Assembly: GCF_900114615.1 (NCBI RefSeq)
Contig: NZ_FOTS01000051.1
Span: forward strand, 1-37,600
Source: Pelosinus propionicus DSM 13327
GTDB lineage: Bacteria > Bacillota > Negativicutes > DSM-13327
Direction: 5' to 3'
DNA: 37,600 bases
The position numbers and the translations under genes were made by a program. This document shows, piece after piece, positions 2,610 to 35,097 of this stretch (the first letter of the stretch is position 1; each line of letters begins with the position of its first letter). Under the pieces are notes generated by a model, which ran no database searches, was not told where the DNA came from, and saw only the letters and a list, made by a program, of their open reading frames with translations.

Positions 2610-4496
2610 ATGAAAAAAAGTACGAGCAGTAATCTAATTACAGCAATCAAAGATTTTTTAGTATATCAGCCGCCTGCTCAGCCCACTCCTTTTGTTTTGA
2701 CTGAGACACAGGCGGAGAAGGCAGAAAACGAAGGTAAATTCTGTCCTTCTGCTGCTGTCACAGAGGGGATACGAGAGCTAGAGTTCATGGTTAATTATGC
2801 CAAAAAATTAGATGCGTTTATGAAAAAAAGCAGTAAAGAGCTGCGAAGTAAGGAAAAGCATGAAGTAGTCAAAAAAATTAAAGCTGAATTTGAGATGATA
2901 CAAACTGAGTGGAAAGAAATAAAAAAACATACGATACAGAATCATAGCATTGATGGTATGTATAATAATGCTGTGATTAGTACGGATATTAATGAAAATC
3001 AAAATATTTTAGAATCCATTTATCAGTTGCCTCTTAATAAAGATGTGGTAATTCGAAATATTACCATTTCAGACCAGCCTAAGATAAAAGTTCTAGTTAT
3101 ATTTATGGATGGACTTATTGATAAGAAAATTATTAACATGACTCTCTTAGAACCCTTAATGTTCATGAAGAATATTCAAGAGAATGTGCAAGGGGAAGAT
3201 TTTATCAGTTTTGTCATGGAAGAGTGTCTTCCTAGCGGACAAGCCTCAAGGGTAGGAAGTTTCAAAGAAGTGCAGCAAGCGATCAATACTGGGGATGCTG
3301 TAGTATTTTTTGATGGTTGTGGAGAAGCAGTGGCGGTAGAAACAAAAGGATATGAACACCGCAGCATTGGCAATCCTACAACGGAACAATCTGTACGTGG
3401 CTCGCAAAATGCATTTACCGAAGTTTTGCGTGTCAATACAGCCCTCGTTCGAACAATGCTTCATGCCAGTGACTTGGTAACCGAAATGATTCCTATAGGT
3501 GCAAGAGGGCATTCAAATTGCGCTGTTATGTATATTAAGTCGATTACCAATGAAGAACTGGTTGAAGAAGTAAAAAGACGTATTAATGGCATTAGTACCG
3601 ACATTATCACCGATTCGGGTGTTTTAGAACATTTTATTGAAGATTTTCCAAGAAATCCATTCCCACAAACCTTATCAACAGAGCGGCCAGACCGAGTTGC
3701 AATCCATTTATCAGAGGGAAGGGTAGCTATTTTTATCGATGGCAGTCCTTTTGGACATATTTTACCTGTCTCATTTTTTACGTTAATGCATTCATCAGAT
3801 GATTTCAGCTTGAATTTGTATTATACGAATATGCTGCGTTTGGTAAGGTGGCTAGGAGCCTTACTATCCCTGCTGCTGCCTAGTTTGTATTTAGCTATTA
3901 GTACTTTTCACCAGGAAGCGATACCTACAGAATTACTGTTATCGATTGCTGCAGCTAGAGCGCAAGTACCTTTTCCTACGATAATCGAGATTTTATTTAT
4001 GGAATTTTCTTTTGAGTTAATTCGTGAAGGGGGACTGCGAATTCCCGGTATTTTAGGATCGACCATTGGTATCGTAGGAGCTTTGATCTTGGGACAGACG
4101 GCTGTGACAGCTAAGATTGTCAGTCCCATCATGGTAATTGTGATAGCTCTGACTGGTTTAGCGTCGTACAGTATTCCAGATTATCGATTGGCTTCTGCCT
4201 TTCGCTTAACACGATTCATATTTGTGTTTTTAGCAATGGCAATGGGACTGATTGGTGTTGCCTGTGGTTTCTTACTGTTTATTGCGATGCTATGTTCTTT
4301 AAAGTCCTTTGGCATGCCTTATCTGGCACCGCTGGCACCTAAAACGGTAAATGGAGGAGATACGATCTTTAGAAGTTCCTCCTATCATCAAAAGCGCAGA
4401 CCGGATACATTGAATAGTAAGGATGATATTCGGCAAAAAAAACCTAGTAGATCCTGGCTTACAGAGTCATCGAAAGGAGGCAAGGATCATGAATGA
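2610..4496 (+). CDS. spore germination receptor A subunit (GerA family), divergent and N-terminally extended
   Basis: A GerAA/GerKA-type subunit of a germinant receptor in the spore inner membrane. At 628 residues it is longer than the usual 480-540. The first ~140 residues are a charged, probably helical extension (KSSKELRSKEKHEVVKK region) that I do not recognise. The GerA core follows, with the conserved NPFPQTLSTERPD near residues 345-360. A C-terminal block of about five membrane segments begins near residue 410. The family signature NIALIRRR is replaced by NTALVRTM, so this is a divergent branch. The ATG at 2610 follows GGAGGTGG. The gene overlaps the B subunit by 8 bp. Family assignment is firm; the germinant is unknown. 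Confidence 0.88.
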   Translation: MKKSTSSNLITAIKDFLVYQPPAQPTPFVLTETQAEKAENEGKFCPSAAVTEGIRELEFMVNYAKKLDAFMKKSSKELRSKEKHEVVKKIKAEFEMIQTEWKEIKKHTIQNHSIDGMYNNAVISTDINENQNILESIYQLPLNKDVVIRNITISDQPKIKVLVIFMDGLIDKKIINMTLLEPLMFMKNIQENVQGEDFISFVMEECLPSGQASRVGSFKEVQQAINTGDAVVFFDGCGEAVAVETKGYEHRSIGNPTTEQSVRGSQNAFTEVLRVNTALVRTMLHASDLVTEMIPIGARGHSNCAVMYIKSITNEELVEEVKRRINGISTDIITDSGVLEHFIEDFPRNPFPQTLSTERPDRVAIHLSEGRVAIFIDGSPFGHILPVSFFTLMHSSDDFSLNLYYTNMLRLVRWLGALLSLLLPSLYLAISTFHQEAIPTELLLSIAAARAQVPFPTIIEILFMEFSFELIREGGLRIPGILGSTIGIVGALILGQTAVTAKIVSPIMVIVIALTGLASYSIPDYRLASAFRLTRFIFVFLAMAMGLIGVACGFLLFIAMLCSLKSFGMPYLAPLAPKTVNGGDTIFRSSSYHQKRRPDTLNSKDDIRQKKPSRSWLTESSKGGKDHE

Positions 4497-5598
4497 TCTG
4501 CATCCTGGCAAGTTAGGTGTAGCGGATGGAGTTGCGCTAGTCTTTGGTATTGTTATGCCTCGAGTTTTCTTGTCTACCATTTCGAATCTCATTCAGCAAG
4601 ATGGCCCTATTTTATGGCTGGCAATGGTGATTTATACGATTATCCCTCTGATTATTTTGTACATGATGACCTATGTCCATAAGGGAATAGCGGGAGATAT
4701 TTTCATGGTGTGCCAGCGACTAATCGGTACCATTGGAGCATGGGCGATATTGTTAAGTTATAGTATTATGTTTTTAAGCAACGGTGCTCTGATTTTACGC
4801 TTATATTCCGAATATACCTTGCTGACTGCATTACCGCGGGTGGAGTTTCAGCTGGTTATCGTTTGGTATGCAGTATCTGCAGGTATTTTATGCTATTTGG
4901 GAATTGAGGCATTGACACGGTCGAGTTATATTGTTATGCCTTTTTCCATAGCGTCAATTGGAGTGATACTGCTGCTGCTGGTGCCTTTTTATATCGTATA
5001 TAATCTTACTCCGTGGCAAGGTAATGGTGTTTTGCGAGCCGTACAAACAGGTATCAAAGGTGCGGGATATAATGTAGGGGTTTTAGCATTAGTTTTTTTA
5101 GCTCCAGCATTTCAAAATACAAGGACCATTAAGAGGGCAGCACTTTATGCGTTAAGTTATGCAGGAATGGTGCGCATTAGTTTTATCCTTGTTTATACGA
5201 TGATTTTTGGCAGTGCAGTAGGTGCCGAAAAGACCATGCCGCTTTTTGAATTGGCGCGTTTAGTGTATCTGAATCAATATCTTCAACGCATTGAGGCTTT
5301 GTTTATTATTGTGTGGGTGATGTTTGGTTTATTAGCTGTCGCGGGCAGTCTATACGTTGGCTTATATCTTCTTGCTGTATTATTAAAACTGCCTACACTC
5401 AGGCCCATCGTGCCATTAGGAGCAATATTAATCGCAAATTTGGCAATGATGCCCCCTGATATTGGCTATGTTCTGGAAGTGGATCAAAAGCTGATTACAC
5501 TATTTGATGTTGGTATCTATGGCTTTCCGACCCTATTATTCATCTTGGCATGGTGGAAAAAGAGGAGGGAGAAATTATGTACATCCGCCTCCTCTTAG
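4489..5598 (+). CDS. spore germination receptor B subunit (GerB family permease)
   Basis: A GerKB/GerAB-type integral membrane protein of the spore-permease (APC superfamily) type, thought to bind the germinant. It has 369 residues and about ten hydrophobic helices along its whole length. It starts with KLGVADGVALVFGIVMPRVF, the usual GerB first helix. I place the start at the ATG at 4489, which follows AAAGGAGG at 4473-4480 and overlaps the A-subunit stop by 8 bp. An upstream in-frame start at 4423 lies deep inside the A gene and is not favoured. It overlaps the C gene by 22 bp, so A, B and C are translationally coupled. Confidence 0.88.
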   Translation: MNDLHPGKLGVADGVALVFGIVMPRVFLSTISNLIQQDGPILWLAMVIYTIIPLIILYMMTYVHKGIAGDIFMVCQRLIGTIGAWAILLSYSIMFLSNGALILRLYSEYTLLTALPRVEFQLVIVWYAVSAGILCYLGIEALTRSSYIVMPFSIASIGVILLLLVPFYIVYNLTPWQGNGVLRAVQTGIKGAGYNVGVLALVFLAPAFQNTRTIKRAALYALSYAGMVRISFILVYTMIFGSAVGAEKTMPLFELARLVYLNQYLQRIEALFIIVWVMFGLLAVAGSLYVGLYLLAVLLKLPTLRPIVPLGAILIANLAMMPPDIGYVLEVDQKLITLFDVGIYGFPTLLFILAWWKKRREKLCTSASS

Positions 5599-6809
5599 GA
5601 ATCATGCTGCTGAGTATGGGTGTCTTTCTTTCCGGATGCAATGGTGCAAGAGAAAGTGAGGAAGTAGCCTATATTGTTGCAATTGGTATTGATAAGGCTG
5701 AACAAGAAAATATGATTAAAGTAACATATCAGATTGCCAAACCTAATGTAGAAGGAAACAAAGGGGAAGGTGAAAAAGATACAGTCTTAGTAAGCAATTC
5801 GGCTGTAACTATTACAGAATCCCTTAATTTACTTAACTCTACCACATCATTAGTGCCTTCTATGTCCCATGTGAAGGTATTAGTGGTGGGGCAAGAACTA
5901 GCACGCGAAGGTTTGGCTAATTTTTGGGGATCGTTAAAGAGATATCGAGAATATAGAGGATCTATGTTTGTTTTAGTGGCAAAGGGGACAGCAAGAGATT
6001 TCCTAGATGGGAATAAACCAAGTTTTAATATATCAGCATCGAAATATTTTGAGACGATGCTTGATTCAGGAGTAGAAGCGGGATACTATTTACGCGTCAG
6101 TTTTCATCAATTTTATATTAGACTTAAAAGCAATAGTGCACATCCTTATGCAACATTCGTGGACATCAGTGATTTATCCGGAAAAAAAGAAATTGCGACT
6201 CCGAAGGTAACTGGCAGCAAAATTGACGGTTATGTTGCTGGCGGAATACCACTTCAAGGTGGTAATCCTATACAATTTGCCGGTACAGCTATTTTTAATG
6301 GTGATAAAATGGTAGGTACATTAAGTACTACGGAGACACGCATGATGGCGATGCTGTTAGGTAACTTTAATAATGGCTTTCTTTCAATGGAAGATCCTCT
6401 TGCTCCAACGAAATTTATAAATGTGAATTTACGCTTAGGATCTGCCCCTGAAATTAAGGTGGCTCTGGGAGATGAAGCTCCAGTTATTGATATTAAAATC
6501 TTATTAGAAGGCGAAATTACAAATCTTCCTTCAGGAATTAACTATGAACAGGAGAGTTTCTTACCATTGCTTGAGCAGCAAGTAAATCAAGTATGTCACC
6601 AGGAAATGGCGAACATGATTCATCATACGCAGGAACTGAAATCAGATGTAGTGGGGTTTGGTTACTATATAAGGCCGGAGTTTACAAATTATCAAGATTA
6701 CTTACAGTATCCTTGGTTTGAGGAGTATAGCAGAGCGAAGGTAAATATTATAATTGATACGAAGATTCGCCGGACGGGCTTAATGATACGAACCTATCCT
6801 GTAAGATAA
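5577..6809 (+). CDS. spore germination receptor C subunit lipoprotein (GerC family)
   Basis: A 410-residue GerAC/GerKC-type lipoprotein. The signal peptide ends in the lipobox LSGC near residue 20, so the protein is lipid-anchored on the outer face of the spore inner membrane. The N-terminal core begins EVAYIVAIGIDKA, typical for the family. The C-terminal GerAC-like domain includes NYEQESFLPLLEQQVNQVC and GFGYYIRPEF. The start is the ATG at 5577 with AGGAGGGA just upstream; an in-frame ATG at 5550 would spoil the signal peptide. It lacks the CWDRRE sequence after the cysteine (CNGARESEE instead), which sets it apart from the two C subunits downstream. Confidence 0.87.
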   Translation: MYIRLLLGIMLLSMGVFLSGCNGARESEEVAYIVAIGIDKAEQENMIKVTYQIAKPNVEGNKGEGEKDTVLVSNSAVTITESLNLLNSTTSLVPSMSHVKVLVVGQELAREGLANFWGSLKRYREYRGSMFVLVAKGTARDFLDGNKPSFNISASKYFETMLDSGVEAGYYLRVSFHQFYIRLKSNSAHPYATFVDISDLSGKKEIATPKVTGSKIDGYVAGGIPLQGGNPIQFAGTAIFNGDKMVGTLSTTETRMMAMLLGNFNNGFLSMEDPLAPTKFINVNLRLGSAPEIKVALGDEAPVIDIKILLEGEITNLPSGINYEQESFLPLLEQQVNQVCHQEMANMIHHTQELKSDVVGFGYYIRPEFTNYQDYLQYPWFEEYSRAKVNIIIDTKIRRTGLMIRTYPVR

Positions 6810-8199: not shown

Positions 8200-9882
8200 A
8201 TGAAAAAAATCAAATGCATTCAAAAATTATCAAAACATTTGCCTGAAGCTTCCCTGGAAATGTCTAAAAAAAAGTTGGCGCAACTACAACTGATCACTAC
8301 GCAAAGCACAGAATTTAGTGAGGAAATAGGACAGATCATTGCTCAACTGCGCAGTGTAGCAGCTCCTTCCAGTGAGCCTTTTATTTTTACGTCTGAATTA
8401 CAAGAGAATGAGCAGTTGCTTCGAGTTGTTTTTAGAGACTGCAGTGATATTGAATTTCGTATATTTGATGCTGCTGGCAAGAAAGCTTTACTGGTGTATT
8501 TAAAGGGTATGGCAGATACCTCAAATTTAGAAAGAAATGTCCTTAAACCGCTAATGAGTTATACAGCGCAAGAGACTGAAAATACAGCTAGTTTGTTACA
8601 CCTGCTGACGGATATGAAGCTTGTAGCAGAAAATGTTCTAGGGGCTGCTTCGGTGACAATACTAGCTTCAGCTAAGGCGGCGATTGATGCTGTTATGACC
8701 GGTAATGCATTACTGATGATTGATGGCTTGGCTGAAGTGGCGAGTATTGCGGTCATTAAATATGTGAAACGGGAGATCAGTGCTCCTTATAATGAATATG
8801 CCTTGCAGGGATCTGATGAAGCATTTAATGAAGCCATTATGGATAACATTGCTCTTATACGTCGGCGTACTCGTGATACCAATCTCAAAGTACATATCAT
8901 GAAAATAGGAGAACGTACCAATACAGCGATTGCTGTGCTATATGTAGCCAACTTGGTTAAACCGGGTTTAGTGGAAGAGGTAGAACGCCGCATTGGATTG
9001 ATCAAAAAAGACAAATTGCTTGATTCTGCATCGATTGATCAGTACTTAGTAGATCATCCATGGTCCCCTTTTCCCCAAACACAAATGACAGAAAGACCAG
9101 ATAAAATGTTAGCCGCATTATATGAAGGGCGGGTAGGGATAATTGTAGATGGTACTCCAGTAGAGATTTTGGTTCCCTGTACCTATAACGTTTTGATGCA
9201 AGCTCCTGATGACTATACCATGGCGCCAATCATTGCCAGCCTAATACGCTTCTCAAGAAATGCTGCGGCCTTTCTGGCCGTTTATTTACCAGCCATTTAT
9301 GTTGCAGTTGTTTCTTATCACCCAGGGATGCTGCCTACGACAATGGCCATTTCAATCGCAGAACTAAGATCCCGTACTCCCTTTCCTTCTTTTTTGGAAG
9401 CAATTATGATGGAAATATTATTGGAATTGATACAGGAAGCAATTATACGTCTCCCCGCAAAGCTGACTGGTGCTGCTAGTATGATCGGTGCTTTCATTAT
9501 CGGCAACACAGTCGTGCAGGCTGGCCTTATAAATCCTTTATTAGTAGTTGTAATTGCAACTACGGCTATTTCTTCCTATTCCATGCCTTCTTATAATTTT
9601 AGCATGGCTCTTCGCTGGACAAGAGTACCCATGCTGATCTTGGCGTCTATGCTAGGGTTGTATGGCGTAATTTTAGGGGTTTTAGCCATTACCATCCATT
9701 TATGTTCTTTGCGCAGCTTTGGAGAATCGTATTTAGGCGGTATGTTTAATGTTGATCTTCTGGCAGATTGGAAAGATAGCGTAGTGAGGCTGCCTGCCAA
9801 GTTACTAACAAGAAGACCTAAAGAATTTGGTGCTCAAGACCAGATAAGGATAGGTGACAATGATGGCCAACCTAGAAGCTAA
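8200..9882 (+). CDS. spore germination receptor A subunit (GerA family), second operon
   Basis: A 560-residue GerAA/GerKA-type subunit with the canonical features: NIALIRRRTRDTNLKV near residues 215-230, SPFPQTQMTERPDK near 288-301, and a C-terminal membrane block from about residue 346 ending CSLRSFGESYLGG. Its N-terminal ~65 residues are helical and charged. The ATG at 8200 follows GGAAGGAGAG. It overlaps the B gene by about 23 bp. It differs clearly from the first A subunit, so the two receptors probably have different specificities. No sigma-G promoter with correct spacing was found upstream. Confidence 0.9.
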   Translation: MKKIKCIQKLSKHLPEASLEMSKKKLAQLQLITTQSTEFSEEIGQIIAQLRSVAAPSSEPFIFTSELQENEQLLRVVFRDCSDIEFRIFDAAGKKALLVYLKGMADTSNLERNVLKPLMSYTAQETENTASLLHLLTDMKLVAENVLGAASVTILASAKAAIDAVMTGNALLMIDGLAEVASIAVIKYVKREISAPYNEYALQGSDEAFNEAIMDNIALIRRRTRDTNLKVHIMKIGERTNTAIAVLYVANLVKPGLVEEVERRIGLIKKDKLLDSASIDQYLVDHPWSPFPQTQMTERPDKMLAALYEGRVGIIVDGTPVEILVPCTYNVLMQAPDDYTMAPIIASLIRFSRNAAAFLAVYLPAIYVAVVSYHPGMLPTTMAISIAELRSRTPFPSFLEAIMMEILLELIQEAIIRLPAKLTGAASMIGAFIIGNTVVQAGLINPLLVVVIATTAISSYSMPSYNFSMALRWTRVPMLILASMLGLYGVILGVLAITIHLCSLRSFGESYLGGMFNVDLLADWKDSVVRLPAKLLTRRPKEFGAQDQIRIGDNDGQPRS

Positions 9883-10981
9883 ATCTTACATGACACCATG
9901 GCAGCTGGCAATTGTAGTATTTGTAACTTGTGTGGGGGCACAAATTTTGCTGAGTCCTCGCAGTTTGATTGCTGATGCAGAACATGGAGCCGGGATTAGT
10001 GTAGTGATTGGAGGAGTGTTGTTTTATAGTGCAACCTGCTTAATGCTTGTTCTGGCCAAAAAATATCCCGATGAGACGATCGTTGAATACGCTCCGCGAA
10101 TTTTTGGAAAAATTGGAGGCACTCTGGTCGTCATCTGGTTTAATATGCTGTTTTTTCTACAGGTTATTCAAATATTTTATGGCATGGGGAAAATCATAAC
10201 ATTTTATATGTTTGACCGGACGCCGCCTGAAGTTGTAATCTTGGCATTGCTAGCCGTTTGTGCGTATTGTGCAGTGCAGGATTGGGGAACGATTATGCGA
10301 ATCCAGCAATTCATGTTTTTTGTGGCGTACAGTATACTCATTCTAGTATGGCTAACTAGTATTTTAAATTTGCAGCCTGAAAATCTGCTGCCTTTATGGC
10401 CAGTCAATATTAAGGCAGTTGTAGGCGGTGGATTGTCTACTTGGAATATGTATGCAGGTTATGAATGTGTATTGCTGCTCATGCCGTTAGTATACAGACA
10501 AGTTAGTTTAGGCAGTTTAATAAAGATCATGGGGGCATCTTTTGGATGCTTAATTGTACTCTTTCTACTTGTTATCGTGATTATCATTGGTGTATTAACG
10601 GTAGATGGTGCTAAAAATTTATTGTATCCAGCATTGATCGTTATTCGAAGTGTTGAACTACCAGGAACGTTTATTGAGCGGTTAGAAAATTATCTGCTGA
10701 TTGCTTGGATTCCAGTGGTATTTGATACATTAGCAGCGATGATGTTCTTTATGGGAGAAATCTGTATGCGGCATTGGCGTCAGGCTGATCATCGTCCTTG
10801 GGTTTTATTCTTAGTGCCAATCATATATGTGGGCAGCATTCTTTTAGATAATCAGCAGGTATATGAGATGGCAAATAAATTCACGATGTGGCTGGGATTG
10901 GCTTTTTCTTTTATTGCAGTTCCCTTGTCTCTTTCACTTTCCTGGTGGCAAAAACGGAAGGCAGGGACAGGTTGTGGCTAA
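9860..10981 (+). CDS. spore germination receptor B subunit (GerB family permease), second operon
   Basis: A 373-residue, about ten-helix spore permease. It opens with MTPWQLAIVVFVTCVGAQILLSPRSL, of which the TPWQ and GAQIL portions are usual for the family. Three in-frame starts are possible: GTG 9854, ATG 9860 and ATG 9863. AAGGATAGGTG lies just before them, so the exact start is uncertain by two residues. It overlaps the A gene upstream and the C gene downstream by 8 bp. Together with the A and C subunits it forms the membrane receptor. Confidence 0.88.
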   Translation: MMANLEAKSYMTPWQLAIVVFVTCVGAQILLSPRSLIADAEHGAGISVVIGGVLFYSATCLMLVLAKKYPDETIVEYAPRIFGKIGGTLVVIWFNMLFFLQVIQIFYGMGKIITFYMFDRTPPEVVILALLAVCAYCAVQDWGTIMRIQQFMFFVAYSILILVWLTSILNLQPENLLPLWPVNIKAVVGGGLSTWNMYAGYECVLLLMPLVYRQVSLGSLIKIMGASFGCLIVLFLLVIVIIIGVLTVDGAKNLLYPALIVIRSVELPGTFIERLENYLLIAWIPVVFDTLAAMMFFMGEICMRHWRQADHRPWVLFLVPIIYVGSILLDNQQVYEMANKFTMWLGLAFSFIAVPLSLSLSWWQKRKAGTGCG

Positions 10982-12188
10982 AAGGAAATTGATAGGGTGC
11001 GTGGCATTACTTCTTTTATGTTTCCTTGTCGCCGGATGCTGGGATCGGCGAGAACTACAGGATCGTAATTTTGTATTAGCGGTAGCGATTGATATGGCAG
11101 ATGATGGATTAAAGCTAGGTATCGATCCCAAAGAGGCTCTCAAAGTACGAGAAGAAGAAACCTTTGTTCAACCAGACGGCAGAAAGCGATATCGTTTGAG
11201 TTTGCAGTTATTAAAGTTTTCTTCAGGAGAGGCCGGTAAAGATGAAGCTAAGACTTATGCTATATCGAACACCGGAGAATCTTTCTTTGAAATGGTGAGA
11301 GATATGCTGGGGCAGTCCAGTAAATCTCTCTGGTTTGAACATCTGCAGGTTATTATTATTAGTGAGGCTGTATTGAGACAAACGGGATTGGCTGAAATTG
11401 TAGATTTTTTTAAAAGAGATTCTGAAATGCGTTCGCGGATTAAAGTATATGTAACGCCGGGTACAGCCCGTTCTTTAATAGAATATCAACCGCCTTCGAA
11501 AGAAGCTGGCGGTATGTTTTTAGCCGATCTCATACGCCTTCACAGCCGAAATAATCATATAGCAGGAGCACGCACTGACTTAGGGTATACTGTTCAGTAT
11601 CTCGATCTTCGAAGCAATGTATTATTACCCCGAATTGAAATAGCCGATAAAGTTGTAAAATTAGGAGGATCAGCAGTATTTAAAAAAGATAAATTTATTG
11701 GTTATGTAGATGGATATGCTATCGCGGGTCTGAAATTTATGTATGGAACAGAGGAGTCTGCTATTGTTGCCACAGAATGTCCTGATCATCCTGGACATCA
11801 GATGGCATTTGAATTGTTTCGTGATGATACTAAACTCATACCTCATGTAGAGGGTGACACAATTTATTTTACTGTAGATATAAATATGTATGGCAACCTT
11901 GGAGAAATTCAGGGGGATATTAGTCAGGATGACACATTAGACCCACAATATATTCATCGGCTGGAAATAGCATTTGCGGAAGAAATTAAACAAAATGTAC
12001 TCTATGCAGATCGTGTCTTTAGAAAAGAAATGCAAGTTGATACGATCAGTCGATTTGCTGGTAAGTTAAAGGCATATGAGCCTGAGACCTGGGCAAAGGT
12101 TCAGGATCAATGGGATGAGATCTATCCTATGATTCCAATCATCATTTCTGTGAATGTAACCATTCAGAAGGTCGGCAGCCATAAGTAA
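10974..12188 (+). CDS. spore germination receptor C subunit lipoprotein, second operon copy 1
   Basis: A 404-residue GerC lipoprotein. I place the start at the GTG at 10974, which follows AGGGACAGG and overlaps the B-gene stop by 8 bp. Starting there gives a clean signal peptide (KRKLIGCVALLLLCFLVAGC). The lipobox cysteine is followed by the family motif WDRRELQDRNFVLAVAID. The C-terminal GerAC-like domain is intact. An upstream in-frame start at 10863 would lie inside the B gene and is rejected. The next gene is a paralogue of this one. Confidence 0.88.
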   Translation: MAKRKLIGCVALLLLCFLVAGCWDRRELQDRNFVLAVAIDMADDGLKLGIDPKEALKVREEETFVQPDGRKRYRLSLQLLKFSSGEAGKDEAKTYAISNTGESFFEMVRDMLGQSSKSLWFEHLQVIIISEAVLRQTGLAEIVDFFKRDSEMRSRIKVYVTPGTARSLIEYQPPSKEAGGMFLADLIRLHSRNNHIAGARTDLGYTVQYLDLRSNVLLPRIEIADKVVKLGGSAVFKKDKFIGYVDGYAIAGLKFMYGTEESAIVATECPDHPGHQMAFELFRDDTKLIPHVEGDTIYFTVDINMYGNLGEIQGDISQDDTLDPQYIHRLEIAFAEEIKQNVLYADRVFRKEMQVDTISRFAGKLKAYEPETWAKVQDQWDEIYPMIPIIISVNVTIQKVGSHK

Positions 12189-12235
12189 AAAAACAGAGCA
12201 TTTTATACCGCTTAATGAAGGGGAGAGAAACGTTG

Positions 12236-13474
12236 TTGACTGATATGGGGGGGCTAATTAGAAATCGCATTTTCAAGCGTTGGACTGGCTGTATTCTAAT
12301 TCTCATACTCAGTATATGTCTTAGTGGCTGTTGGGATCGACGTGAGTTGCAAGAGCGGCATTTTGTTCTTGCAGTTGCGATTGACAAAGCAGATGAAGGA
12401 CTTGGGGCAGAGCGAGGAAAAGACGTTGACCGAGTGGAAGACTTTGTTCAGCCTCATGGCAGTAAGCTTTACCGTTTGAGCTTTCAAATATTGCAGTTAA
12501 CGCCCTCCAATAATAGTGAAGGGGCCGGAAGAGGAAACACATCAACCAGTGTAATCTCTACTACAGGTGAATCAATGCTTGAAATGATTTGGGATCTTCA
12601 AGGGCAATCTAATAAAGAACTTTGGTTTGATCATGTTCAAACAATTATCATTAGTGATGCTGCTGCCAAGCAGGGCGGACTGCAGCCAATTCTTGATTTT
12701 TATCATCGAAATGAGGAAATACGCTGGCTTACAAAAGTCGTAATTACTGATGGAGAAGCACGAGATTTGTTAGATTACAAACCTCCTAGTGGTGAAGCAA
12801 GCGGTCTATTTATAGCAAATAGTCTGCGAATGTACGCAAAAAGCCAGCATGTTCCAGGATGGCATACTGATTTAGGAGATATTTCGACATCGAAAGATAA
12901 TAGGAGAAGAGTGCTGTTACCACGGATTGAAATGGCAGATGATGTAGTCAAGCTGGGGGGAATGGCTATATTTAAAAATGAAAAGTTTGTTGGCTATGTA
13001 GATGAGTATGCTACACAAGGCGGGAAGCTGATGGGCGGTCTTGAGAGATCAGCAGTGATTACATTTCAATGTCCAGAACATTCTGGATCGATACTTGCAT
13101 TTGAGCTTTTTAGCCATACAACAAAAATCAAACCTCATGTAGAAGGAGAGAAAATTTATTATACTTTGGATATTAATATACGAGGTAACATGGCGGAAAT
13201 GCAATGCAGGCTCCAGCATGATACGATAAAAGATCAGGACATACATAAACTTGAACAGCTGGTTGCTAATGTTGTAAAAGAAAACATACTCTATTCTTTC
13301 CGCATTTTTCAAGACCTGAAAGTCGATGCCAGTTTCTTCGGTCCGAAATTAGAAATATATGAACCTCAGGTGTGGGAACGAGTCAAAGATCATTGGGATG
13401 ATGAAGTTTTCCCGAAGACTTCTTTAATTATATCTGTTAATGTGGTGATTGAAGGTGTAGGAGCGCATCAGTAA
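12236..13474 (+). CDS. spore germination receptor C subunit lipoprotein, second operon copy 2
   Basis: A second GerC lipoprotein of about 412 residues, clearly paralogous to its upstream neighbour (CWDRRELQERHFVLAVAIDKADEG against CWDRRELQDRNFVLAVAIDMADDG). Similarity continues to the C-terminal WDDEVFPKTSLIISVNV. The signal peptide ends LSGC. The start is probably the TTG at 12236 (or 12233), because AAGGGGAGAG lies 8 bp before it. The in-frame ATG at 12215 has no ribosome site in front and contains that purine run within its own coding sequence. The gap to copy 1 is short, so both are likely in one transcript. Confidence 0.86.
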   Translation: MTDMGGLIRNRIFKRWTGCILILILSICLSGCWDRRELQERHFVLAVAIDKADEGLGAERGKDVDRVEDFVQPHGSKLYRLSFQILQLTPSNNSEGAGRGNTSTSVISTTGESMLEMIWDLQGQSNKELWFDHVQTIIISDAAAKQGGLQPILDFYHRNEEIRWLTKVVITDGEARDLLDYKPPSGEASGLFIANSLRMYAKSQHVPGWHTDLGDISTSKDNRRRVLLPRIEMADDVVKLGGMAIFKNEKFVGYVDEYATQGGKLMGGLERSAVITFQCPEHSGSILAFELFSHTTKIKPHVEGEKIYYTLDINIRGNMAEMQCRLQHDTIKDQDIHKLEQLVANVVKENILYSFRIFQDLKVDASFFGPKLEIYEPQVWERVKDHWDDEVFPKTSLIISVNVVIEGVGAHQ

Positions 13475-32304: not shown

Positions 32305-32333
32305 TTGTAAAATTCGAAAAAAAATGCTAAAAT
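32305..32333 (+). promoter_or_regulatory. sigma-A promoter of the HTH/AAR-like operon
   Basis: TTGTAA (32305-32310), 17-bp spacer, TAAAAT (32328-32333) preceded by TGC, giving an extended -10. Confidence 0.6.
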
Positions 32334-32336
32334 ATG

Positions 32337-32360
32337 TATGTGCACAACCTTGTGCACATA
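32337..32360 (+). promoter_or_regulatory. 24-bp perfect palindrome, probable operator at the transcription start
   Basis: Arms TATGTGCACAA (32337-32347) and TTGTGCACATA (32350-32360) around CC. It begins 3 bp after the -10 box and so covers the expected +1. It has no T-run. The next gene is an HTH regulator, so autoregulation is the simplest reading. Confidence 0.7.
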
Positions 32361-32442
32361 TACTATGTTAGACAAAATAATAAAAATTCACCATAAAACC
32401 AATTTATGTTGTATTGGGATGTAATGTAGGAGAGGATAGCAG

Positions 32443-32967
32443 ATGTTATTGCGAATTGGTGAAAAGATCATAAATCGCCAAAAAATCAACCAGATCATCG
32501 ATGAAATGTTCAATTTACGCAGTCAAGGCTTTTCACAGCAAGAAGTCGCTAATCGTGTTGGCATCGACCGAACTGTTATTTCCAAATTAGAAACGCTGGG
32601 GGAAGTTCGAAAAGGTGGAAAAGTAGCTTTAGTTGGCTTTCCTATTGAAAATTGCGAAGAACTGCGAATCATGGCTAGACAGGAAGGGATTGATTATTCT
32701 TTATTGCTGTCAGAGCAGGAACGTTGGGATTTTGTACAGAAAAAAAGTGGTATTGGTCTTTTTAACACCATTATGGAAATCATCGCTACATTGCGTAACT
32801 ATGACATTGTAATTATACTAGGGTCAAATGTTAGAATTAAATTAATGGAGACATTATTAGATAAGGAAGTTATTGGAATACAAATTGGTGAATCTCCTAT
32901 TGCAGAGAATAAATATGTAGATCCAGAAAGTATCAAAAGTATTGTGCAACAGTTGTTTAGATCATAG
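32443..32967 (+). CDS. HTH transcriptional regulator, uncharacterised
   Basis: A 174-residue protein. A helix-turn-helix lies at about residues 28-50 (SQGFSQQEVANRVGIDRTVISKLE). The larger C-terminal domain looks like an alpha/beta fold, with GGKVALVGFPIENCEEL and YDIVIILGSNVRIKLMETLL, and may bind a ligand. I do not recognise a characterised family for that domain. The ATG at 32443 follows GTAGGAGAGG. It is first in a three-gene unit behind a promoter with a palindromic operator, so it probably controls itself and the two enzymes. Confidence 0.75.
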   Translation: MLLRIGEKIINRQKINQIIDEMFNLRSQGFSQQEVANRVGIDRTVISKLETLGEVRKGGKVALVGFPIENCEELRIMARQEGIDYSLLLSEQERWDFVQKKSGIGLFNTIMEIIATLRNYDIVIILGSNVRIKLMETLLDKEVIGIQIGESPIAENKYVDPESIKSIVQQLFRS

Positions 32968-32983
32968 AGGGAGCAAAGGTATT

Positions 32984-33889
32984 ATGAAACGGGTTGTCAG
33001 TATCAGCTTAGGGTCATCAAAGCGTGACCATCAGGCTATAAGCCAATTTGGTGGAGAAATGTTTTCCATTGAGCGAATAGGAACAGATGGAGATAAAAAT
33101 AAGGCAATACAATTAATCAATGAACTAGATGGTAAAGTAGATGCTTTTGGCATGGGTGGGACAGACTTATACATATATGCTGGAAAGAAAAGATATACTT
33201 TTAAAGAGTCGGTCGAAATAGCTGCAGCAGCTAAGCATACTCCTATTGTAGATGGCAGTGGCGTAAAGAATACTCTTGAGCGAAGAGTCGTGCAATATTT
33301 AAATGAAAAAGAAGGCATAATCTTTGATGGCAGGCAAGTTCTAGTTGTTTGTGCAGTTGATCGGTTTGGTTTAGCAGAAGAATTAGTAAATGCTAAAGGC
33401 AAAGTAGTATTTGGTGACTTATTATTTGGTTTAGGAATTCCTGTTCCAATTCGTAAATTGGGGACTTTAGCAATGTTGGCGCGGGTGATTGCGCCTATTA
33501 TCACAAAATTACCAATCGAAATATTTTATCCTACAGGTGAAAAGCAAACACAAAATATTCCACGTTTCAGTCAATATTTTGAACAAGCAGAATTTATAGC
33601 AGGTGATTTTCATTTTATTCGCAGATACATGCCAGCGAACTTAAAGGGGAAATCTGTCATAACCAATACTGTTACCCAAAAAGATGAAGAGTTGCTTCGT
33701 GATCGGGGAGTAAAAACGTTAGTAACAACAACACCGGAAATTGGTGGTCGTTCTTTAGGGACAAATGTATTAGAAGCTATTTTGGTTACTTTACTAGGTA
33801 AACGTCCAGAGGAAATTACGGCGATGGACTATGGACGTATTTTGGAGGAGTTAGAGATTATGCCGCGAATTAAGCGGCTTTCTGATTGA
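32984..33889 (+). CDS. protein of unknown chemistry, usually labelled quinate 5-dehydrogenase
   Basis: A 301-residue cytoplasmic protein. Notable segments are VVSISLGSSKRDH at the N-terminus, VDAFGMGGTDLYIYAG, TPIVDGSGVKNTLERR, QVLVVCAVDRFGLAEEL, and near the C-terminus GVKTLVTTTPEIGGRS and TNVLEAI. I recall close relatives in anaerobic Firmicutes named quinate 5-dehydrogenase. However, no clear GxGxxG dinucleotide motif or shikimate-dehydrogenase Lys/Asp signature is visible, so that name is poorly supported. I choose the ATG at 32984, after GAGGGAGCAAAGG. It is followed 14 bp later by the AAR-like gene, implying a shared pathway. Confidence 0.7.
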   Translation: MKRVVSISLGSSKRDHQAISQFGGEMFSIERIGTDGDKNKAIQLINELDGKVDAFGMGGTDLYIYAGKKRYTFKESVEIAAAAKHTPIVDGSGVKNTLERRVVQYLNEKEGIIFDGRQVLVVCAVDRFGLAEELVNAKGKVVFGDLLFGLGIPVPIRKLGTLAMLARVIAPIITKLPIEIFYPTGEKQTQNIPRFSQYFEQAEFIAGDFHFIRRYMPANLKGKSVITNTVTQKDEELLRDRGVKTLVTTTPEIGGRSLGTNVLEAILVTLLGKRPEEITAMDYGRILEELEIMPRIKRLSD

Positions 33890-33903
33890 AAGGAGAATAT
33901 TTC

Positions 33904-34998
33904 ATGGAAAAATTTGCTTTTATCGTGCATCCGTTCATTGCGAAAGATGTTAGTCGTAAATTTTCATTTACTAAAAGCTGGCCGGATGGCTTGGTTGAAG
34001 GGGTATTAAAATACATTCCTCCCTTTAAAACTTCACATATCACAGGTGTACAGTCAACTCTATCACAAGGTGAGGGCTGGTTTGTTACTTGTCCGTTAAC
34101 ATCGCGGCAAATGGTTGAGATGCCTGAACATTATGTAGTGCAAAAGATTATCAAGGCAGGAAAAGTAGCCGAAAAGCTGGGTGCAAAGATTGTTGGGTTA
34201 GGCGCCTTTACTTCTGTGGTGGGAGATGCAGGTATAACGGTTGCAAAGAATCTAAATATAGCTGTTACCACCGGGAATAGTTATACGGTTGCTACTGCTC
34301 TTGAAGGTACCAGACAAGCGGCTAAAATTATGGGGATTGATATGGAAAGAGCTAACGTGTTAGTTTTAGGTGCGACTGGGTCTATTGGTGCAGCTTGTGC
34401 TCAAATCTTAGCGAGGGAAGTTCGATATCTAACATTAGCTGCACGCAACGAAGAGAAGTTGGAAAAACTTGCTGAGCAAATTTTACGAAAAACAGGTTTA
34501 GCTGCAAAAGTAACTGCAAATACTAAATCTGCTTTAAGGTCAGCTGATATTATTATTGCCGTAACAAGTGCAGTAGACACTATCATTGAACCAGAGGATT
34601 TAAAATCAGGCGCAATTGTTTGTGATGTAGCCAGACCTCGAAATGTTTCCCGACGTGTAGCTGATATGCGCAATGATATTCTGGTGATAGAGGGGGGCGT
34701 AGTTGAAGTCCCTGGTGATGTCAATTTTGGACTCAATATTGGTTTCCCTGAAGGTACGGCATATGCTTGTATAGCTGAAACTATGATTTTATCATTAGAG
34801 CAGAGATATGAGAACTTTACATTAGGTCGAGACTTAACAGTAAAGCAGGTAGAAACAATTGAGACTTTAGCTAAAAAGCATGGTTTTAAATTAGCTGGTT
34901 TTCGTAGTTTCGAAAAAGCAATTACAGCAGACGAAATTGCAGCGATTAAAGCAAATGTAGCAATTAATAAACAGGAACAGAAGAGAGGAATTGGTTAG
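33904..34998 (+). CDS. acyl-ACP reductase (AAR)-like NAD(P)-dependent reductase
   Basis: A 364-residue protein resembling cyanobacterial acyl-ACP reductase along its length. Shared elements are LGAFTSVVGDAG, TTGNSYTVA, KIMGIDMERANVLVLGATGS, LAARNEEKLEKL, EGGVVEVPGDV, ACIAETMILSLEQRYENFT and KKHGFKLAGF. The Rossmann glycines are GATGSIG (156-162). Cys289 in AYACIAET corresponds to the thioester-forming active-site cysteine of AAR. AAR reduces fatty acyl-ACP to fatty aldehyde with NADPH. The usual shikimate-dehydrogenase label probably reflects only the Rossmann domain. The ATG at 33904 follows AAAGGAGA. Substrate here is inference. Confidence 0.72.
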   Translation: MEKFAFIVHPFIAKDVSRKFSFTKSWPDGLVEGVLKYIPPFKTSHITGVQSTLSQGEGWFVTCPLTSRQMVEMPEHYVVQKIIKAGKVAEKLGAKIVGLGAFTSVVGDAGITVAKNLNIAVTTGNSYTVATALEGTRQAAKIMGIDMERANVLVLGATGSIGAACAQILAREVRYLTLAARNEEKLEKLAEQILRKTGLAAKVTANTKSALRSADIIIAVTSAVDTIIEPEDLKSGAIVCDVARPRNVSRRVADMRNDILVIEGGVVEVPGDVNFGLNIGFPEGTAYACIAETMILSLEQRYENFTLGRDLTVKQVETIETLAKKHGFKLAGFRSFEKAITADEIAAIKANVAINKQEQKRGIG

Positions 34999-35004
34999 AA
35001 ATCA

Positions 35005-35033
35005 TTGACAAATAGTATGTTTATACCTATAAT
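35005..35033 (+). promoter_or_regulatory. perfect-consensus sigma-A promoter upstream of greA
   Basis: TTGACA (35005-35010), 17-bp spacer, TATAAT (35028-35033): the ideal sigma-A promoter. It is 190 bp before greA, leaving a long leader with a hairpin at 35073-35097. The rest of the 34999-35222 gap holds no gene. Confidence 0.75.
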
Positions 35034-35072: not shown

Positions 35073-35097
35073 AGTGTCAAGTTATTCACTTGGCACT
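35073..35097 (+). other. hairpin in the greA leader (attenuator or small RNA 3' end)
   Basis: Arms AGTGTCAAG and CTTGGCACT pair over 9 bp with one wobble around TTATTCA, followed by ATTTATATTG. It begins about 33 nt after the expected transcription start. The T-tract is weak. Confidence 0.4.

Follow-up and report, generated by a model that had tools for sequence, protein, structure and literature searches.

The 37,600-nucleotide window of the Pelosinus propionicus DSM 13327 genome analysed here carries a self-regulated operon of three genes, encoding a helix-turn-helix (HTH) regulator, a protein of no named family hereafter called MID (for the middle protein), and a thioester reductase resembling acyl-acyl carrier protein (ACP) reductase (AAR). 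The operon is shared by about half of the genomes sampled from the phylum (AAR in 205 of 398). We lean slightly towards reading it as a self-repressed unit that makes an aldehyde from a carrier-bound acyl thioester, the aldehyde then being converted to an amine by a class-III aminotransferase under the same repressor. All three genes lie on the forward strand: the HTH gene at positions 32443-32967 (174 amino acids, with an N-terminal helix-turn-helix and a C-terminal Rossmann-like domain), the MID gene at 32984-33889 (301 amino acids, predicted to adopt an AAR-like fold that lacks the Gly loop and Cys of AAR), and the reductase gene at 33904-34998 (364 amino acids, of the superfamily formed by AAR, the N-terminal part of PigE and the C-terminal part of TamH). 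The intergenic gaps are 16 nt (HTH to MID) and 14 nt (MID to AAR). The first-pass annotation of this DNA had described three close genes behind a promoter-like site and a 24-bp palindrome; that arrangement is seen, and its spread is wider than was noticed then.

Thioester reductases of the AAR type have been described in the alkane synthesis of cyanobacteria and in a small number of natural-product clusters. A conserved chromosomal operon in which such a reductase stands with its own regulator and a near-constant partner of no named family is unlike those settings, and an operator shared with genes for aminotransferase-AAR fusions makes the identity of the aldehyde or amine, and the job of MID, testable. 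As far as the searches go, the MID family and the regulon joining the trio to the fusions are new here. No description of the operon was found in the open-licence literature by searches centred on AAR, aminotransferases and plasmalogens.

The trio is flanked in the window by dusB on one side and greA-lysS on the other. A survey of relatives for conserved linkage of the three genes, proposed with the first-pass annotation as a check, found the order dusB-HTH-MID-AAR-greA-lysS recurring across the phylum. Among 80 named MID loci, many of which stop at a contig end, an HTH gene was present in 68 and an AAR-like gene in 61 (four of these below 100 bits), with greA in 64, lysS in 60 and dusB in 53; HTH, AAR and greA occurred together in 44. 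Presence was also scored across an even sample of 398 genomes from the phylum, with a threshold of E<=1e-40 for AAR. MID was found in 290 genomes, including 203 of the 205 with AAR. The two AAR genomes lacking MID are 78% and 84% complete, and 13 other listed members of the class had neither MID nor AAR at the thresholds. Counting the reductase in either form, AAR or fusion, MID accompanies it in 221 of 224 genomes. In the Armatimonadota, L096 and L133 carry MID and AAR, L098 has MID without AAR, and the stretch of L137 ends too early to tell.

The best NCBIfam score of the reductase was to the PigE model (215 bits, E 1.8e-63), followed by the acyl-ACP reductase family TIGR04058 (137 bits, E 9.1e-40, residues 38-329); both scores are under the equivalog cut-offs of these families (850 and 449.7 bits, respectively). 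The closest PDB entries were PigE 4ppm and AAR 6jzq (E 4.1e-31 for 6jzq), and the best Pfam match was to the general Shikimate_DH domain PF01488 (54.5 bits, E 1.7e-14, above the cut-off of 24.3). Identity as a glutamyl-tRNA or shikimate reductase was considered and rejected: the hemA model gave 51 bits (E 1e-13; cut-off 209.55) and the shikimate dehydrogenase models listed in NCBIfam gave at most 26.5 bits (best E 3e-6; 26.5 bits for a cut-off of 252 and 24 bits for a cut-off of 221). Firm profile placement among those two groups had been set as a test of the AAR assignment, and the result came out otherwise, with the AAR and PigE models far ahead. What stands of that assignment, on these matches and the kept catalytic Cys, is identity at the level of the AAR superfamily; the protein is not an equivalog of cyanobacterial AAR, and PigE scores higher. 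The key residues named in the AAR structure paper (PMC7089970) are the catalytic Cys294, the loop GATGDIG (residues 162-168) and the basic NADPH residues R189, R193 and R314. The window protein retains Cys289 (codon 34768-34770, forward strand), which aligns with Cys294 of AAR and Cys296 of PigE, the dinucleotide loop GATGSIG (residues 156-162; 34369-34389, forward strand), and R181, K185 and R309. Judged from this conservation, the reaction of the reductase would be expected to pass through an acyl-enzyme and to yield an aldehyde.

A 24-bp operator, TATGTGCACAA-CC-TTGTGCACATA (32337-32360, strand-neutral), lies ahead of the HTH gene, just downstream of the second promoter hexamer. It is formed by two 11-nt arms, 100% complementary and 2 nt apart, and appears to be placed where a repressor would block transcription. 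The pattern TATGTRCACAA-NN-TTGTRCACATA was fixed after viewing the upstream regions of many relatives and was scored at 93 of 122 HTH loci, 29 having been excluded for a low score, fewer than 150 bases upstream or a duplicate upstream region. With up to four mismatches it was present upstream of the HTH gene at 50 of the 93 loci (0.0 expected in shuffles), comprising 15 of 15 Negativicutes and 35 of 78 others; with up to six, at 74 (0.35 expected), including 59 of the 78 loci outside the Negativicutes. The sole perfect copy in the host genome is the trio's own. Three further host sites were found (two to three mismatches), and no trio or related aminotransferase gene lay within the 3 kb stretches around them. 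The operator appears to stay with the HTH gene and the reductase, since MID genes displaced from the trio (L224-L229) and distant MID paralogs (L204-L213, L233-L235) showed no convincing operator (at best five mismatches in L234, and six in L208 and L211). The best fold match of the C-terminal domain of the HTH protein (Z 7.7) is to a Rossmann-like arrangement that is too common to point to any ligand.

In other genomes the operator recurs before genes, not linked to the trio, in which a class-III aminotransferase is joined to an AAR domain in a TamH-like manner, mostly in open reading frames (ORFs) of 850-1030 amino acids. The aminotransferase domain was found in L140, L142, L214, L217, L218 and L221. 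Three fusions were scanned against NCBIfam, and each scored best with PigE, which matched in two stretches with 531-570 bits; PigE was also the top PDB match for the aminotransferase part of one fusion. A search with the AAR part of L218 detected a fusion at E<=1e-70 in 33 of the 398 genomes, 32 of them with MID; the 33 are a lower bound, as G055, G183, G190 and G310 have a fusion and fall outside the threshold. The set examined for operators comprised 39 fusions, G373 having been dropped because its aminotransferase and AAR domains are not within one ORF; G111 and L140, which have the same upstream match and look like one genome, were both counted. With up to six mismatches within 150 bp, the operator preceded 21 of the 39 (0.06 expected), and for 18 of these 21 sites the domain starts 38 to 59 bases further downstream. 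The fusions serve as an independent test of the operator because they were not used to fix the pattern, with the exception that the L140 and L142 regions had been viewed for their HTH genes. By motif, a catalytic-type Cys was present in all 39 fusions and the Gly loop in 31. The fusion occupies the slot of AAR in the trio in G353 and G215; in G008, G055, G094 and G183 an HTH gene precedes the fusion, away from MID.

A genome-wide scan of 28 chosen genomes returned 33 operator sites versus 2 for the reversed pattern; most of these genomes were selected for fusions or odd reductases, and the 33 sites are not a phylum average. Sixteen sites lie before HTH genes (one, in G373, by coordinates), eight before aminotransferase-AAR genes (counting the two-ORF case of G373), one at a contig end after dusB, and eight elsewhere. 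The last eight all carry two mismatches, and no trio gene was near the five of them examined. Two further observations concern the fusions. The one at L217:7081-9615 (genome G117) has the domain order of PigE, reductase then aminotransferase; G117 also has MID and AAR, and no operator was found in the stretch. L214 and L142 carry a further class-III aminotransferase-like gene downstream of the fusion.

MID gave no family match in Pfam or NCBIfam at E<1 and is conserved beside AAR, as expected of the unrecognised partner that the first-pass annotation had supposed it to be. In public annotation, MID-like proteins carry the label quinate 5-dehydrogenase. No significant PDB relative was found by phmmer or profile search (best profile E 1.6), and profile comparison of MID with AAR by hhalign revealed no sequence similarity (probability 0.3, E 0.19). 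MID is 90% identical to its homolog in a Pelosinus fermentans metagenome-assembled genome. A structure predicted with AlphaFold2 from 46 sequences had a mean pLDDT of 90.4. Foldseek results with this model were mixed: the top rows by E-value were mainly sugar-binding proteins, and AAR had the highest TM-score, 0.50, among the matches listed. Upon realignment with VIA-align 2, AAR ranked first (Z 14.5, root-mean-square deviation 4.2, 248 residues, 14% identity), followed by the TAD domain of carmabin synthetase (Z 13.6) and then glutamate dehydrogenases (Z 10.5); there was no convincing match to viral folds. The MID alignment contains many invariant polar residues and no invariant or near-invariant Cys, and SAVDRFG, matched by eye, replaces GxxGxxG. 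Based upon the predicted model, MID is read as an AAR-fold protein with a different activity and a different, polar active site; it constitutes a new family whose fold seems to be that of the reductase. Second MID-like proteins with 30-45% identity were seen at other sites (L204-L213, L233-L235), beside genes named by eye as patatin-like, ACT-domain and mraZ-like, or as thiL- and carboxyltransferase-like.

In the pathway proposed, the conserved residues suggest that AAR would load an acyl group from ACP or coenzyme A onto Cys289, and that reduction with NAD(P)H would yield the aldehyde. The fusions and the shared operator suggest that a class-III pyridoxal phosphate-dependent aminotransferase would then convert the aldehyde to a primary amine. 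Some relatives combine the two activities in a single polypeptide, in the manner of TamH; Pelosinus would need the aminotransferase in trans, encoded elsewhere. The HTH protein would bind the operator near the transcription start and repress until a ligand, perhaps a metabolite of the pathway, binds its C-terminal domain. The probable task of MID is to make the thioester substrate ready or to deal with the product, and it may also act where AAR is missing. The sequence from acyl carrier to aldehyde to amine is considered the likeliest because of the shared repressor site and the exchange of reductase for fusion, and because the characterised relatives PigE and TamH perform this chemistry. PigE reduces a thioester and transaminates the aldehyde (PMC8341465), and for TamH with its partner TamA the conversion of acyl-ACP to aldehyde to amine was shown (PMC9594044). 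A broader proposal is put forward tentatively, and we rate it as somewhat doubtful: that HTH-MID-AAR and the co-regulated fusions constitute an unrecognised, old and very widespread pathway from acyl carrier to amine in anaerobic Firmicutes and some Armatimonadota, with MID the first AAR-fold enzyme of other chemistry and the HTH protein a dedicated sensor.

Several observations weigh against the amine pathway. The window reductase is unfused and ends after the reductase domain, and none of the aminotransferase genes of the host genome is preceded by the operator. The nearest stand-alone host aminotransferase (G000:C121) has 45% identity to the fusion domain and adjoins a bioY-like gene; it is the best candidate for the partner in trans, though to name it as such is a guess. 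The operator was missing from 18 of the 39 fusions; nine of these rows (eight distinct genomes) have an HTH gene in the same locus, and nine fusions (in G355, G186, G101, G192, G312, G275, G041, G375 and G372) have neither operator nor HTH gene in the fetched stretch. The displaced MID genes and distant paralogs likewise lack a convincing operator, and 69 of the 290 MID genomes have no reductase or fusion at the thresholds used. In some lineages the AAR homolog is in place with its catalytic Cys replaced, a finding that a role in catalysis alone would leave unexplained. MID thus seems able to fulfil its role in some lineages without an active reductase, which counts against the simple picture.

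The extent of this loss bears on a different explanation, in which MID pairs with the AAR-like protein as a sensor or scaffold and catalysis is dispensable. Among 114 third genes aligned, in which some genomes are present twice, Cys289 was retained in 100 and replaced by D, S, A, V or W in eight recognisable AAR homologs. Three same-place genes without significant AAR similarity have P at this position, and three were unreadable there (L083 and L130 at contig ends, L101 unaligned). L101, L111, L115 and L139 have no significant AAR similarity and were counted as degenerate homologs on the basis of position, length and visual inspection; the third gene of L102 scores only 26 bits. The reductase at L099:1741-2814 has Ala in place of Cys but an intact Gly loop (GATGAMG), and it still matches the window protein with 421 bits; it may have lost catalysis only recently. 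A MID tree of 118 rows was built by a quick search after removal of identical MID sequences; seven rows had no state, and many branches are weak. On this tree, at least four changes of the Cys state are needed among recognisable AAR homologs, or six if the four genes judged degenerate by eye are included, and absence of AAR beside MID requires about nine changes, five of them forced by well-supported branches. At least four losses of the catalytic Cys, together with the absence of the reductase gene next to MID in several lineages, make an independent role for MID probable. The sensor or scaffold reading would fit these changes, the persistence of degenerate copies in the operon position, and the 87 of 290 MID genomes without AAR at E<=1e-40. 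It is nonetheless unlikely, since the Cys is kept in most third genes and in every fusion, the basic NADPH residues are preserved in most third-gene rows, and Cys-bearing fusions replace AAR in the same slot.

Other fates of the aldehyde are less probable still. Its reduction to an alcohol, or use in the spore envelope in place of amination, draws on the distribution of SpoIVA, which was found in 336 of the 398 genomes: 271 of 290 with MID versus 65 of 108 without. This association is confounded by kinship, and 19 MID genomes have no SpoIVA match, including G208 and G305, which carry MID as well as AAR and are each 97% complete; these genomes and the Armatimonadota that carry the genes led to rejection of sporulation as the sole role, and an alcohol or spore product is judged improbable. 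Supply of a fatty aldehyde to ether lipids or plasmalogens, the suggestion of the first-pass annotation, has on its side the membership of the reductase in the AAR family, a host presumed to be anaerobic, and relatives some of which are known for such lipids. The shared operator points instead to aminotransferases, and the host encodes a large DUF2229 protein that may be a plasmalogen-forming enzyme of a general kind already described: bacterial plasmalogens derive from diacyl lipids via two known reductases (PMC9702350). The lipid idea is accordingly weak and quite improbable, the regulatory evidence favouring transamination of the aldehyde, and the amine hypothesis is better supported. Alkane synthesis as in cyanobacteria has in its favour AAR family membership only. 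The earlier remark that no aldehyde-deformylating oxygenase (ADO) is nearby extends to the whole host genome, where PF11266 had no match (the control, Synechococcus elongatus, was positive); the known ADO route is thereby refuted, and the chance of alkane synthesis is negligible.

The promoter-like site ahead of the operator (32305-32333, forward strand) is a sigma-70-like TTGTAA-17-TAAAAT with TG before the second hexamer, identified by consensus match only. It agrees with the consensus at 9 of 12 positions, an ordinary score, with 15 such sites in the region versus 10.1 in shuffles. A perfect promoter, TTGACA-17-TATAAT, is present at 35005-35033, beginning 7 nt past the stop codon of AAR. 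The greA leader contains, at 35073-35097, a hairpin followed by a T-rich tail that could be an attenuator. Two gene sets elsewhere in the window (2610-6809 and 8200-13474) resemble, by eye, gerA-type spore germination receptors.

Among known systems, cyanobacterial AAR (TIGR04058; 6jzq) shares with the window reductase similarity over residues 38-329, the GxxGxxG loop and the catalytic Cys, and R189, R193 and R314 of AAR correspond to R181, K185 and R309. It differs in that the window protein falls far below the family cut-off and is encoded in an operon with HTH and MID in a host without ADO. PigE, the thioester reductase-aminotransferase of prodigiosin synthesis, is the best NCBIfam model for both the trio reductase and the scanned fusions, with Cys296 aligned; the window reductase is below its cut-off and stands alone, and the scanned fusions other than L217 are aminotransferase-first. 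The transaminase-thioester reductase PtTamH of tambjamine synthesis, likened here from its description in PMC9594044, has the domain order of the fusions and a catalytic-type Cys, but is NADH-specific and belongs to a natural-product cluster, whereas the trio is a widespread conserved operon. The TAD domain of carmabin synthetase (PDB 9e4s-9e56), which is the second-best fold match of MID and is also related in sequence to the reductase (E 1.3e-12), is part of a peptide synthetase, as given in the PDB entry titles. MID itself, in its predicted model, shares with the AAR family the overall fold, but not sequence similarity, the Gly loop or the catalytic Cys.

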